Shown here in pieces: positions 4,933-8,972 of a stretch of 64,000 bases of DNA (position 1 is its first letter; every line of letters starts with the position of its first letter). Under the pieces are notes generated by a model. That model saw only the letters and a list, made by a program, of their open reading frames with translations, was not told the DNA's origin and ran no database searches. The stretch is from positions 1-64,000 of the forward strand of contig CANGBB010000009.1 in the NCBI GenBank assembly GCA_947452065.1. The letters run 5' to 3'. This DNA is from Gammaproteobacteria bacterium. GTDB lineage: Bacteria > Pseudomonadota > Gammaproteobacteria > Steroidobacterales > Steroidobacteraceae. Position numbers and translations under genes: made by a program.

Positions 4933-6498
4933 TCAGGCAAGCGTCTCGGGCAGCGCCCGGCGCAACTGGATCGCCTCGGCCAGATGCGAGGCGCCAATCG
5001 CAGAACTCTCGTCGAGGTCAGCCACCGTGCGGGCAATGCGCAGCATGCGGTGAAGCCCGCGCCCGCTGACGGAGAGCTGCTCCGTCACGCGACCGATCAG
5101 CCGGGCGGCCTCTTCATCCAGTACACAATCCGACTCAAGGCGGGACACGGGTAGCCGGGCATTCAGACAACCGGCGCGCTTTTCCTGTCGTGCACGGGCC
5201 GCAGCCACCTGCGACGCCACAGTGGCATGGCGAGGTTCCGACTCCCCGTCAGGGCGTGGGCCAGGCCGCCCTCGCCCGCCGGGCAGCAACTCAGCGATGT
5301 TTTGCCGCGGCATGACGACCCGCAGGTCGATCCGATCCCACAGCGGGCCGGACAGGCGGGCACGGTAACGCTCAATGGCTCGCGGGCTGCACAGACAGGT
5401 GGCGCCGGGGTCGCCATGATGGCCACAGGGACAGGGGTTCATGGCTGCCACCAGCTGGAAGGCGGCCGGCAGGTCGAGCCGTCCGGCGGCGCGCGCCAAG
5501 CTGACTCGGCCGGTTTCCAAGGGCTCGCGCAGAGACTCCAGCACCCGCCGGTCGAACTCCGGGAACTCGTCCATGAACAGCACTCCGTGGTGCGCCAAGC
5601 TGATCTCCCCGGGCGTCAGCTGCGGGCCGCCGCCGAGCATGGCGCTGGCCGATGCGGTGTGGTGCGGACTGCGGAACGGGCGCCGTCCCCACTGTCCGGA
5701 ATCGAAGCTGCCGCTGGCAATGCTGCGGAGGCTGGCCACCTCCAGCGCCTCGGAGGCGGACAAGGCTGGCAACAGCCCCGGGAGACGACTGGCGAGCAGG
5801 CTCTTGCCGCTGCCGGGCGGGCCGAGCAGCAGCAGGCTGTGACCACCCGCCGCCGCCACAGTCAATGCGCGTTTAGCTCCAGAATGACCTAATACATCGT
5901 CTAAAGTGCCATATTGTTTTTCTGGAGAAACAATGTCGCTCCAGAGCTGGCCTCTGCATGGGGCCGACGGCAGGTCTTCGGGAAGGACGCCCTCGCTCAG
6001 GAAGTTGCACACCTCACGCAGGCTGCGAAGGCCGACGGCCTTCTTGCCGGCCACCCGCGCGGCCTCTTCTAGGTTGCCCAGCGGCAGCACCATGAGGCCC
6101 TCCGCTTCGCTGGCGTGGATGGCTGAAAGCAGCACCCCGGCCACTGGCTTCAATTCGCCGGACAGGCCCAATTCGCCAAAGCACTCGTAATGTTCCGCGT
6201 CGTCCCAACGCGCCTGACCAGACGCACGCAGCAGACCTAGGGCAATGGGCAGATCGTACCGGCCGCCCTCTTTGGCGAGATCCACCGGCGCCAGGTTGAC
6301 GGTGATTCGGCCGGGCGGGAAGTCATAGCCGGAATTGACGATGGCGGCCCGGACCCGCTCGCGGCTCTCCCGGACCACGGGTGCCGGCAGGCCCACCAGA
6401 TTGAAGCAGGGCAACCCCGCCGCTAGGTGGACTTCGACATGGACCAGCGGCGCGGTCAGGCCGATCTGGGCACGGCTGCGAATCTCGGCAATGGCCAC
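4933..6498 (-). CDS. comM: ComM/YifB-family AAA+ ATPase (Mg-chelatase-like)
   Basis: Helicase of natural transformation that drives branch migration of incoming DNA. The 521-residue protein has the N-terminal chelatase-like domain (GLPAPVVRESRERVRAA, about 36-52), Walker A GPPGSGKS (226-233), Walker B LFMDEFPEF, a Zn-type Cys cluster (CPCGHHGD...CLC) and the C-terminal lid typical of the family. The start is GTG at 6498, directly after the strong ribosome-binding site AAGGAGGT. The open frame runs further upstream but only over ubiK sequence in another frame. It lies 34 bp downstream of ubiK in the same direction. Confidence 0.93.
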   Translation of the reverse strand: MAIAEIRSRAQIGLTAPLVHVEVHLAAGLPCFNLVGLPAPVVRESRERVRAAIVNSGYDFPPGRITVNLAPVDLAKEGGRYDLPIALGLLRASGQARWDDAEHYECFGELGLSGELKPVAGVLLSAIHASEAEGLMVLPLGNLEEAARVAGKKAVGLRSLREVCNFLSEGVLPEDLPSAPCRGQLWSDIVSPEKQYGTLDDVLGHSGAKRALTVAAAGGHSLLLLGPPGSGKSLLASRLPGLLPALSASEALEVASLRSIASGSFDSGQWGRRPFRSPHHTASASAMLGGGPQLTPGEISLAHHGVLFMDEFPEFDRRVLESLREPLETGRVSLARAAGRLDLPAAFQLVAAMNPCPCGHHGDPGATCLCSPRAIERYRARLSGPLWDRIDLRVVMPRQNIAELLPGGRGRPGPRPDGESEPRHATVASQVAAARARQEKRAGCLNARLPVSRLESDCVLDEEAARLIGRVTEQLSVSGRGLHRMLRIARTVADLDESSAIGASHLAEAIQLRRALPETLA

Positions 6499-6532
6499 AC
6501 GACCTCCTTCCTTGGATGCGGCGGCGGGAGAG

Positions 6533-6832
6533 TTACGGCTGGTGCGATCGTGCCTCCAGCACGGCGATGCGCGCCTCCAGCTGCGCGAGGCGCTCCTGAG
6601 CGCGGGCCAGCACACGCTCCTGTGCATCAAACTCCTGACGGCTGCACAGATCCAGACGTGCGAGTTGCTGCTGCAGGATGGTTTTGAAGTGGGTTTCCAG
6701 ATCGCTCCGGGCCGAGCCCAGCACAGCCGGCACCCCGTCGACGAGCCGGCGGACCAGGTCTTCAAAGTGGATGGTGCCGGGGCGCTGCGCGCTGTCCTGC
6801 CGGGATCCGGATCCCGAGGCATTGGTGCTCAT
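6533..6832 (-). CDS. ubiK: Ubiquinone biosynthesis accessory factor UbiK (YqiC)
   Basis: Small (99-residue) BMFP-domain protein that helps the late steps of ubiquinone synthesis as a partner of UbiJ. The body FEDLVRRLVDGVPAVL and the C-terminal coiled coil (RAQERLAQLEARIAVLEAR) are typical. The start at ATG 6832 gives the family length; the longer frame to 7123 has no family similarity. It precedes comM in the same direction. UbiJ and UbiB are encoded at 22.9-25.1 kb. Confidence 0.88.
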   Translation of the reverse strand: MSTNASGSGSRQDSAQRPGTIHFEDLVRRLVDGVPAVLGSARSDLETHFKTILQQQLARLDLCSRQEFDAQERVLARAQERLAQLEARIAVLEARSHQP

Positions 6833-7088
6833 GTTCTTGTCTCCATGCGTTCCTCTGCTGCTTTCAGCGGCGCTTGCCCCGAAATGGACCAGCGCCACGC
6901 CGCCGAGCATCCGGTTTGGTGCAACGCGACTGCGATGCCTGCAAATCGGCGCTTCCTGCGGGCGATTGGCCGTGGCACGGATTCTGCAAACCAGACTCAT
7001 GCCGGACACGACGTGCCCACAAGGATAGGCGCGACGGGTCGCGGTGGAAATAGCACCAAAGGCAGCCAAACGTTCACTTATGAGCCTT

Positions 7089-7376
7089 ATGAAACTCATC
7101 ACAGCCATTGTCCGGCCACACAAGCTGGAAGAGTTGCGGCTTGCCGTGGCCCAGCTGGGTGTTCAGGGCATGACCGTTACCGAGGTCATCGAAGGAATCC
7201 ATGGTGCGCGCAGCAAGCTGGAAATCGCGGTGGCCGAAGGCGTCTTTGAACCCGTCATGGAAGCGATCGCGAATGTGGCCCGCACCGGTCGCGGTGGGGA
7301 CGGTCATATCACGGTCTGTGAATTGCTCGAGGCGGTGCGGATCCGCACGAGTGAGAGCGGCGAAGCCGCAACCTGA
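7089..7376 (+). CDS. PII-family signalling protein (GlnK-like) lacking the T-loop
   Basis: The start at 7089 gives MKLITAIVRPHKLEELR, the canonical PII N-terminus; an ATG at 7080 adds only three residues. The first 33 residues align with GlnK up to TVTEV. The next ten (34-43, IEGIHGARSK, bases 7188-7217) replace the 27 residues that normally form the T-loop and its flanks. The uridylylation tyrosine (Tyr51) and the Gln39 ligand of MgATP/2-oxoglutarate are therefore missing. The B-loop (TGRGGDGHI) and C-loop (RIRTSE) remain. The 95 residues are 17 fewer than the usual 112, an in-frame change with no sign of a frameshift. It sits 45 bp before amtB, so a link to ammonium transport is likely, but normal AmtB docking through the T-loop seems impossible. 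Confidence 0.85.
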   Translation: MKLITAIVRPHKLEELRLAVAQLGVQGMTVTEVIEGIHGARSKLEIAVAEGVFEPVMEAIANVARTGRGGDGHITVCELLEAVRIRTSESGEAAT

Positions 7377-7421
7377 AGCTAGAGCAGAGAATTGAGATAA
7401 CTGAGGATGGGAGAACCAATG

Positions 7422-8972
7422 ATGAGCATGAGATGGACTTCAAAACAGCCGCGCCTCGCTGCGTCGCGCTGGATCAAACTGACGGCCTGCCTGCTGGCGG
7501 GATTTGGTGCGTGGAACGCATTACCGGCCGCGGCGCAGGATGCGCCTGCTGCAGCACCTCCGGCAGCCGAAGCGGCTGCGGCGCCTGCTGAAGCGGCCGC
7601 TGCGACCACTGCCGAAGCTGCTGCACCGGCAGCCGCCCCGGCTCCCACTCCCAACAAGGGCGACACGGCTTGGATGCTGACTTCAACGGCGATGGTGCTG
7701 CTGATGTCGGTGCCGGCGCTGGCTTTGTTCTACGGCGGCCTAGTCCGCAAGAAGAACATGCTGTCGGTACTCATCCAAGTATTCGTGGTCTTCTCACTGA
7801 TCACGGTACTTTGGTGTGTCTACGGCTACTCGCTGGCCTTCACTGAGGGCAATGCCTTCATCGGTGGATTGGGTAGGTTGTTCCTGAATGGCACCTTCAA
7901 TCCAGCGGATGGCAGTTACTCCCTCGCCGCCACGTTCAGTAAGAACACTCCGTTGTATGAGCTGGTGTTCGTCGCCTTCCAGGCCACGTTCGCAGCCATC
8001 ACCGTGTGTCTGATCCTGGGATCCATTGTCGAGCGCATCAAGTTCTCGGCGCTGCTGATCTTCTGCGTGATCTGGTTCACCATCAGCTACCTGCCGATCG
8101 CGCACATGGTCTGGTTCTGGCAGGGACCGGATGCGTACACCTCGGCTGATGTTGTCGATGCGATGAATGCCAAGGCGGGTCTGCTGTGGCAGTGGGGCGC
8201 GCTGGACTTCGCCGGCGGCACCGTGGTGCACATCAACGCCGGTGTGGCCGGTCTGGTCGGCGCCTTAATGCTCGGCAAGCGCCTGGGCTTTGGTCGCGAA
8301 GCCATGCCGCCGCACAGCCTGACGATGACGATGATCGGAGCTTCGCTGCTGTGGTTCGGCTGGTTCGGCTTCAATGCCGGCTCGGCGCTGGAAGCCAACG
8401 GCACGGCCGGTCTGGCCTTCATGAACACCTACCTGGCAACGGCCTGCGCGGTGATCTCCTGGACGTTCGGCGAATGGCTGCTGAAGGGTAAGCCCTCTCT
8501 GCTGGGCGCTGCCTCGGGCTGCGTCGCCGGTCTGGTGGCCATCACCCCCGCTGCAGGCAACGTGGGTATCCCGGGCGCGTTCATCATCGGCCTGTTGGCC
8601 GGCCTCATCTGCCTGTGGGGCGTCACGGGGCTGAAGAGACTGATCAAAGCCGACGATTCGCTGGATGTGTTCGGCGTGCATGCGCTGGGCGGCATCTCCG
8701 GTGCGCTGCTGACGGGTATCTTCAATGCCCCCGCGCTGGGCGGCCCGGGCTTCTACAACAACTGGTTCGAGATGAAGCCTGGCTACGGCGCCATCTTCGA
8801 CCAGTTCCTGGTGCAGGCCAAGGCGGTCGGCCTGACGGTGGTGTGGACTGCGGTATCGGCCTACATCGCCTTCAAGATTGCTGACCTGATCGTCGGGCTG
8901 CGCGTCCCCGAAGACGCCGAGCGCGAAGGTCTGGACACCACCTCGCACGGTGAAATGGCTTATCACGACTGA
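7422..8972 (+). CDS. amtB: Ammonium transporter AmtB
   Basis: Inner-membrane ammonium channel with about eleven helices. Family signatures are clear: LFYGGLVRKKNMLSVL near the start of the core, FAGGTVVHINAGVAGLVGAL with the pore histidine, and FGVHALGGISGALLTG with the second. The start at 7422 (or 7419) follows GGGAGA; an ATG at 7407 lacks a ribosome-binding site. A signal peptide (to AAAQ) is followed by an unusually long Ala/Pro/Glu-rich periplasmic stretch of about 45 residues before the first core helix. It is co-directional with the T-loop-less PII gene and ends before a strong terminator. Confidence 0.95.
   Translation: MSMRWTSKQPRLAASRWIKLTACLLAGFGAWNALPAAAQDAPAAAPPAAEAAAAPAEAAAATTAEAAAPAAAPAPTPNKGDTAWMLTSTAMVLLMSVPALALFYGGLVRKKNMLSVLIQVFVVFSLITVLWCVYGYSLAFTEGNAFIGGLGRLFLNGTFNPADGSYSLAATFSKNTPLYELVFVAFQATFAAITVCLILGSIVERIKFSALLIFCVIWFTISYLPIAHMVWFWQGPDAYTSADVVDAMNAKAGLLWQWGALDFAGGTVVHINAGVAGLVGALMLGKRLGFGREAMPPHSLTMTMIGASLLWFGWFGFNAGSALEANGTAGLAFMNTYLATACAVISWTFGEWLLKGKPSLLGAASGCVAGLVAITPAAGNVGIPGAFIIGLLAGLICLWGVTGLKRLIKADDSLDVFGVHALGGISGALLTGIFNAPALGGPGFYNNWFEMKPGYGAIFDQFLVQAKAVGLTVVWTAVSAYIAFKIADLIVGLRVPEDAEREGLDTTSHGEMAYHD

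Follow-up and report, generated by a model that had tools for sequence, protein, structure and literature searches.

Gene content and organization of the locus

The window, by which is meant the whole stretch of 64,000 nucleotides that was analysed, carries a gene for a GlnK-type PII protein from which the T-loop has been removed by deletion (Table 1). The slot in which the gene lies has the order cytochrome-yifB(-)-ubiK(-)-PII-amtB; orthologues of these neighbours in other genomes were matched using the window proteins. In the 17 genomes that were found to carry the same deletion, amtB is the next gene downstream in 14 of the 15 loci readable on that side (the exception is G010; G009 and G014, where the contig edge is reached downstream of the PII gene, were excluded from this count), and dapF was found beyond it in 10 of the 11 loci with enough sequence on that side, the exception being G002. 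In several other genera a full-length PII occupies the same slot before amtB (genomes G144, G218, G219, G221, and G029).

Table 1. Features of the T-loop-less PII locus in the window, with counts referring to the 17 loci that share the deletion
Feature	Position	Strand	Basis
yifB-like gene, divergent neighbour marking the slot	4933..6501	-	Present in 16/17 loci, absent in G234
Short UbiK-type gene, conserved slot member	6533..6832	-	Beside PII in 17/17 T-loop-less loci
sigma54-like -24/-12 promoter, TGGCACGGATTCTGCA	6973..6988	+	Sole match to TGGCAYRNNNNYTGCA in the window
T-loop-less PII (GlnK-type), 98 aa	7080..7376	+	Pfam P-II match; alignment with GlnK and 16 orthologues
Alternative start of the PII frame at 7089 (MKL), giving 95 aa	7089..7376	+	
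Ten codons (I37-K46), short turn replacing GlnK residues 34-60	7188..7217	+	Alignment; model strands 32-38 and 42-52, turn 39-41
Second helix (GlnK 69-82), lateral face	7242..7283	+	Segment identities versus slot PIIs and paralogues
B-loop TGRGGDGH (GlnK 83-90), Lys90 replaced by His	7284..7307	+	Alignment, column counts
C-loop Arg-Ile-Arg (GlnK 101-103)	7338..7346	+	Invariant in 17/17 T-loop-less rows
amtB, ammonium transporter, conserved cytoplasmic segments and C-terminal tail	7407..8972	+	Pfam Ammonium_transp, 391 bits; alignment with E. coli AmtB

The promoter-like site was located by scanning with the sigma54 -24/-12 consensus TGGCAYRNNNNYTGCA. The site in the window is not significant by itself, since 0.20 matches were expected and 17 of 100 shuffled sequences have one; among the 17 T-loop-less loci, however, 16 have the motif at a distance of 100-115 nt upstream of the PII gene, compared with 0.05% of base-shuffled upstream regions. 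Similar sites were seen before full-length slot PIIs and some paralogues in a rough scan with a flawed scoring penalty, and putative NtrC-like palindromes occur upstream in the g21 loci. Gene order and the upstream promoter-like site imply that the T-loop-less PII would be co-transcribed with amtB.

Extent of the deletion

The predicted protein matches the Pfam P-II family (PF00543) across the whole model (60.5 bits; cut-off 25), and scores 76.5 bits with the GlnK equivalog NCBIfam NF007946, below its curated cut-off of 181. Counted from the MKL start it has 95 residues compared with 112 in E. coli GlnK, a net loss of 17, and the two align without gaps to Val33, the alignment resuming before Lys60. 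In PII proteins, both the site of uridylylation and Gln39, which belongs to the 2-oxoglutarate switch, lie in the T-loop. By alignment, Gln39, Arg47, and Tyr51 are deleted in all 17 T-loop-less PIIs, and within the short turn one Glu, one Gly, and the Arg at the place of Lys58 are invariant in every copy. The initial annotation had described a PII protein with the T-loop deleted upstream of amtB, closely similar to GlnK up to residue 33 and once more from the strand that follows the loop, encoded by an intact gene and devoid of Tyr51, Gln39, and the finger that plugs AmtB; each of these statements was borne out, the frame being unbroken in the window and amtB lying directly downstream. Its count of ten residues in place of 27 stands as regards the ten codons at 7188-7217, but the last of these still align with GlnK 56-60 (family consensus GPRxK versus LPKxK; GARSK in the window), so that Lys58 has been replaced by Arg and not deleted. 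A sequencing or assembly error at the deletion was rejected because 17 genomes carry a deletion of the same length.

A structure model of the window PII, built on an alignment containing 11 full-length PIIs, shows strands and helices in the order typical of PII, the T-loop being replaced by the turn (mean pLDDT 79), and all 50 PDB matches listed by Foldseek are PII or GlnK by title (TT1020 by name). The best PDB match by sequence is 5ovo_B, from an entry titled as the complex of DraG with GlnZ-delta42-54, an engineered T-loop deletion. Set beside GlnK of glnK-amtB operons, the window PII is alike in its C-loop, its N-terminal strand and helix, its place before amtB, the sigma54-like site upstream, and its modelled fold; it differs in lacking Gln39, Arg47, and Tyr51, in having Arg for Lys58, and in the variability of position 90 within its family. 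Members of the PII-like superfamily (PstA, CutA and the like), which have the same trimeric fold with other loops, are distant in sequence, whereas the window PII is a close relative of GlnK minus the loop. Word searches of the open-access literature brought up no description of a PII that naturally lacks the T-loop.

Distribution and phylogeny

A family survey in which 217 genomes were searched for close relatives with the same deletion recovered it in 17 genomes of two genera, at 62-68% identity: 11 of 15 genomes of g1, the genus of the window, and 6 of 9 genomes of g21. The homologues lacking the T-loop and linked to amtB for which the initial annotation had proposed a search are thus present, in the same yifB-PII-amtB slot. 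No short-span PII was found outside g1 and g21 among the matches listed in an order survey (396 genomes, E values up to 1e-20) or among those listed in a phylum survey (398 genomes, E values up to 1e-18), where divergent cases may be missed. Of the 24 genomes in g1 and g21, 19 had a readable slot; contigs of G005, G013, and G237 end in or next to amtB, and G012 and G233 could not be read because neither yielded an amtB.

In a tree computed without the T-loop columns, the T-loop-less PIIs cluster with full-length PIIs from two other genera, g12 and g14 (support 94/89), the window copy lying on a long branch (0.63). A single origin of the deletion is compatible with the data (p-AU 0.44); the best tree needs two changes.

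Changes at the base of the T-loop were also observed in full-length PIIs near the T-loop-less group (loci L090-L092, L024, L026-L032, and L034). Arg38 is replaced by Ala or Thr in these proteins and Gln39 by Glu, Val, or Ala in most of them; the T-loop with Tyr51 is retained in nearly all and lost in L032, and the full-length relative L025 retains both Arg38 and Gln39. Genus g7 (L093-L096 and L108) carries a tandem pair of PIIs, which adjoins yifB at four of the five loci. The second PII of the pair is canonical; the first shows T-loop changes in G137 (where Tyr51 is Ile), G128, and G020.

Conserved features of the PII body

The B-loop motif of the PII family is TGxxGDGK. In the T-loop-less proteins, T83, G87, D88, and G89 of this loop are kept in all 17 copies and G84 in 15; position 90 is Lys in four, Arg in eight, and Ser, His, or Leu in the remaining five, the window having His, and Ile86 and Phe92 vary as well. 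Arg101 and Arg103 of the C-loop (RIR) are kept throughout. The earlier claim that the B- and C-loops remain holds for the C-loop and must be qualified for the B-loop, which is relaxed at Lys90, Ile86, and Phe92. A role as a nucleotide sensor is plausible, and nucleotide binding is uncertain because Lys90 and Phe92 vary.

Over the second helix, the T-loop-less PIIs are 74% identical to four full-length slot PIIs and 33% identical to 27 paralogues, which is the largest contrast among nine segments; the next largest is that of strand 91-100, with 47% versus 28%. The conservation of the helix could reflect fold or kinship; the slot comparison comprised four full-length rows. In the 27 paralogues, two of which come from genomes without a T-loop-less PII, the T-loop is nearly invariant and the B-loop invariant.

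Proposed function

In published work, the block of AmtB by GlnK is described as made almost entirely by the T-loops, with Arg47 in the pore (PMC4274968), 2-oxoglutarate as read through Gln39, a ligand of Mg-2-oxoglutarate (PMC3198391), and most solved complexes of PII with a target as held by the T-loop (PMC10651883). The engineered GlnZ-delta42-54 of Azospirillum brasilense is reported to bind UmpH still and to escape control by 2-oxoglutarate, residues 69-82 being proposed as the site (PMC11617674), and its complex with DraG has been crystallised (PDB 5ovo). GlnZ-delta42-54 shares with the window PII a PII body from which the T-loop is deleted; it differs in being laboratory-made and in having lost residues 42-54 with Gln39 kept, whereas the natural deletion is a net 17 residues and includes Gln39 and the base of the loop.

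The reading that we tentatively put first is that of a PII reduced to its body, blind to 2-oxoglutarate and not open to uridylylation, which would act through that body as the engineered GlnZ-delta42-54 does. It is favoured because the natural protein keeps the 69-82 face proposed for binding of UmpH by the T-loop-deleted GlnZ. On this reading, the former GlnK of a yifB-glnK-amtB operon would have been pared down to the PII body. Probably made together with AmtB from the sigma54 promoter under nitrogen limitation, the protein would take up the fold of a PII body and might still bind an adenine nucleotide by way of the C-loop, which is invariant, but would be unable to read 2-oxoglutarate, to be uridylylated, or to plug AmtB. 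Most likely its target would be a partner that can be reached without a T-loop and is contacted by the body, above all by the lateral second helix. The resulting PII signal could not be shut off by 2-oxoglutarate, and the full-length PIIs would retain the classical tasks. The more specific proposal, that this lineage turned GlnK into a T-loop-free lateral-face signaller, namely an adenine-nucleotide reader blind to both 2-oxoglutarate and GlnD and made alongside AmtB, is possible and somewhat doubtful.

Full-length PIIs and partner families in the same genomes

One or two full-length PIIs were found in each of the 17 genomes with a T-loop-less PII, so that the latter was rejected as the sole PII of the cell. 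Nine of the 11 g1 genomes have two and the remaining pair have a single one, as does each of the six g21 genomes if two weak matches below the cut-off are left aside. The window genome, in which a check for a second, full-length glnB or glnK had been suggested, has two, one at G000:C3:56437 and one next to a second amtB at G000:C10:14755. Matches to PF08335, the GlnD/GlnE family in which GlnD and GlnE were not separated, were found in all 15 g1 genomes (as fragments only in G005 and G014), and loss of the uridylylation machinery is not supported.

With at least one full-length PII in every one of these genomes, the T-loop-less subunit, made with AmtB, could join full-length trimers and leave them with fewer T-loops, so that blocking of AmtB, or action on other targets, would be partial. 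The co-transcription with amtB implied above would suit such a role, heterotrimers of GlnB and GlnK in E. coli are cited in PMC5448240, and a full-length PII could still bind the slot AmtB because the cytoplasmic segments compared and the tail stay conserved. However, the body of the T-loop-less PII is just 46-59% identical to the full-length PIIs of the same genome, the low identity to paralogues of strand 91-100 would count against shared trimers if this strand belongs to the interface, and full-length PIIs would be expected for other tasks anyway. On balance we regard mixed trimers as unlikely.

As to candidate partners, the UmpH-type hydrolase family PF13344 had no match in the window genome and was over the cut-off in 7 of 18 genomes, and the DraG-type family PF03747 was without a match in five of the 18, each of which has a T-loop-less PII. 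UmpH and DraG are not supported as general partners because neither family is general in these genomes.

Selection, loss, and persistence

The dN/dS ratio was 0.03-0.25 in the 13 closest non-identical pairs of T-loop-less PIIs. Over 120 pairs from 16 genomes, the median pN/pS of the body was 0.20 (0.201) for the T-loop-less PII versus 0.13 (0.132) for one fixed type of full-length paralogue, and the former exceeded the latter in 97 pairs; in most pairs, synonymous sites are almost saturated and the pN/pS ratios are rough, and therefore the ratios show constraint and not its exact strength. None of the 17 frames contains an internal stop, and 42 of 98 columns are invariant across 15 aligned copies. 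A plain pseudogene was thus rejected for the present copies, and plain decay, a pattern that the initial annotation had named as refuting its reading, is not what is seen, the sequence being under constraint.

In one genome of each genus (G003, locus L098, and G239, locus L156), the slot PII is cleanly absent and the sigma54-like site and amtB are retained; because of these two losses, the T-loop-less PII cannot be considered indispensable. In G010 the reverse was found, the PII gene remaining in a slot from which amtB is missing and before which no sigma54-like site was detected. A different short open frame was observed there between dapF and the PII gene, in the place of amtB (L085:4275-5078).

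The two losses, together with the faster evolution relative to the paralogue, the long branch of the window copy, the relaxed B-loop, and the changed residues at 38, 39, or 51 that neighbouring genera already have, would fit a relic. The slot PII would then have lost its function, perhaps to a paralogue that assumed control of AmtB; the T-loop would have gone first with piecemeal loss of the gene following, and what keeps the gene in place would mainly be the slowness of decay or a coupling of its translation to that of amtB. Against this stand the 17 copies without an internal stop, dN/dS well under 1, the invariant columns, and the persistence of the gene in G010 without a slot amtB, and we consider a relic quite unlikely.

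The slot amtB

The slot amtB falls into three AmtB groups, while the slot PII stays of one type. The three groups were observed amid the same neighbours, as if amtB had been exchanged in place. Regardless of the adjoining PII, the cytoplasmic segments compared and the C-terminal tail are conserved, and a relaxed GlnK-binding face was not seen in those segments, the contact residues not being structure-derived. The AmtB of the window has an N-terminal stretch of about 75-80 residues (7407-7655), largely rich in Ala and Pro, which precedes the region alignable with E. coli AmtB. That a T-loop-less trimer docks by its body on the cytoplasmic face or tail of AmtB and alters transport without plugging the pores would account for its position next to amtB in nearly all readable loci, and is very improbable given the three AmtB groups beside a single type of PII, the T-loops as source of almost all GlnK-AmtB contacts (PMC4274968), and the separation of PII and amtB in G010.

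Implications for the PII family

Action through the PII body, the reading placed first above, is supported by the deletion of equal length in the same slot of 17 genomes, the constraint on the sequence, the contrast at helix 69-82, and the precedent of GlnZ-delta42-54, and also by G010, where the PII is retained though the slot has neither amtB nor the sigma54-like site. Against it count the lack of generality of UmpH and DraG as candidate partners, the two clean losses, the faster evolution than that of the paralogue, and the uncertain binding of nucleotides.

The family search gives no hint that the T-loop has been lost, as the protein simply exceeds the Pfam P-II cut-off. A natural family in two genera with a constrained body and no loop provides material for testing what the body of PII can do alone, and whether the T-loop-independent targets known with the engineered protein, UmpH and DraG, matter in evolution. 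If the lateral-face reading is true, the functions of the PII body would have been split from those of the T-loop in nature.
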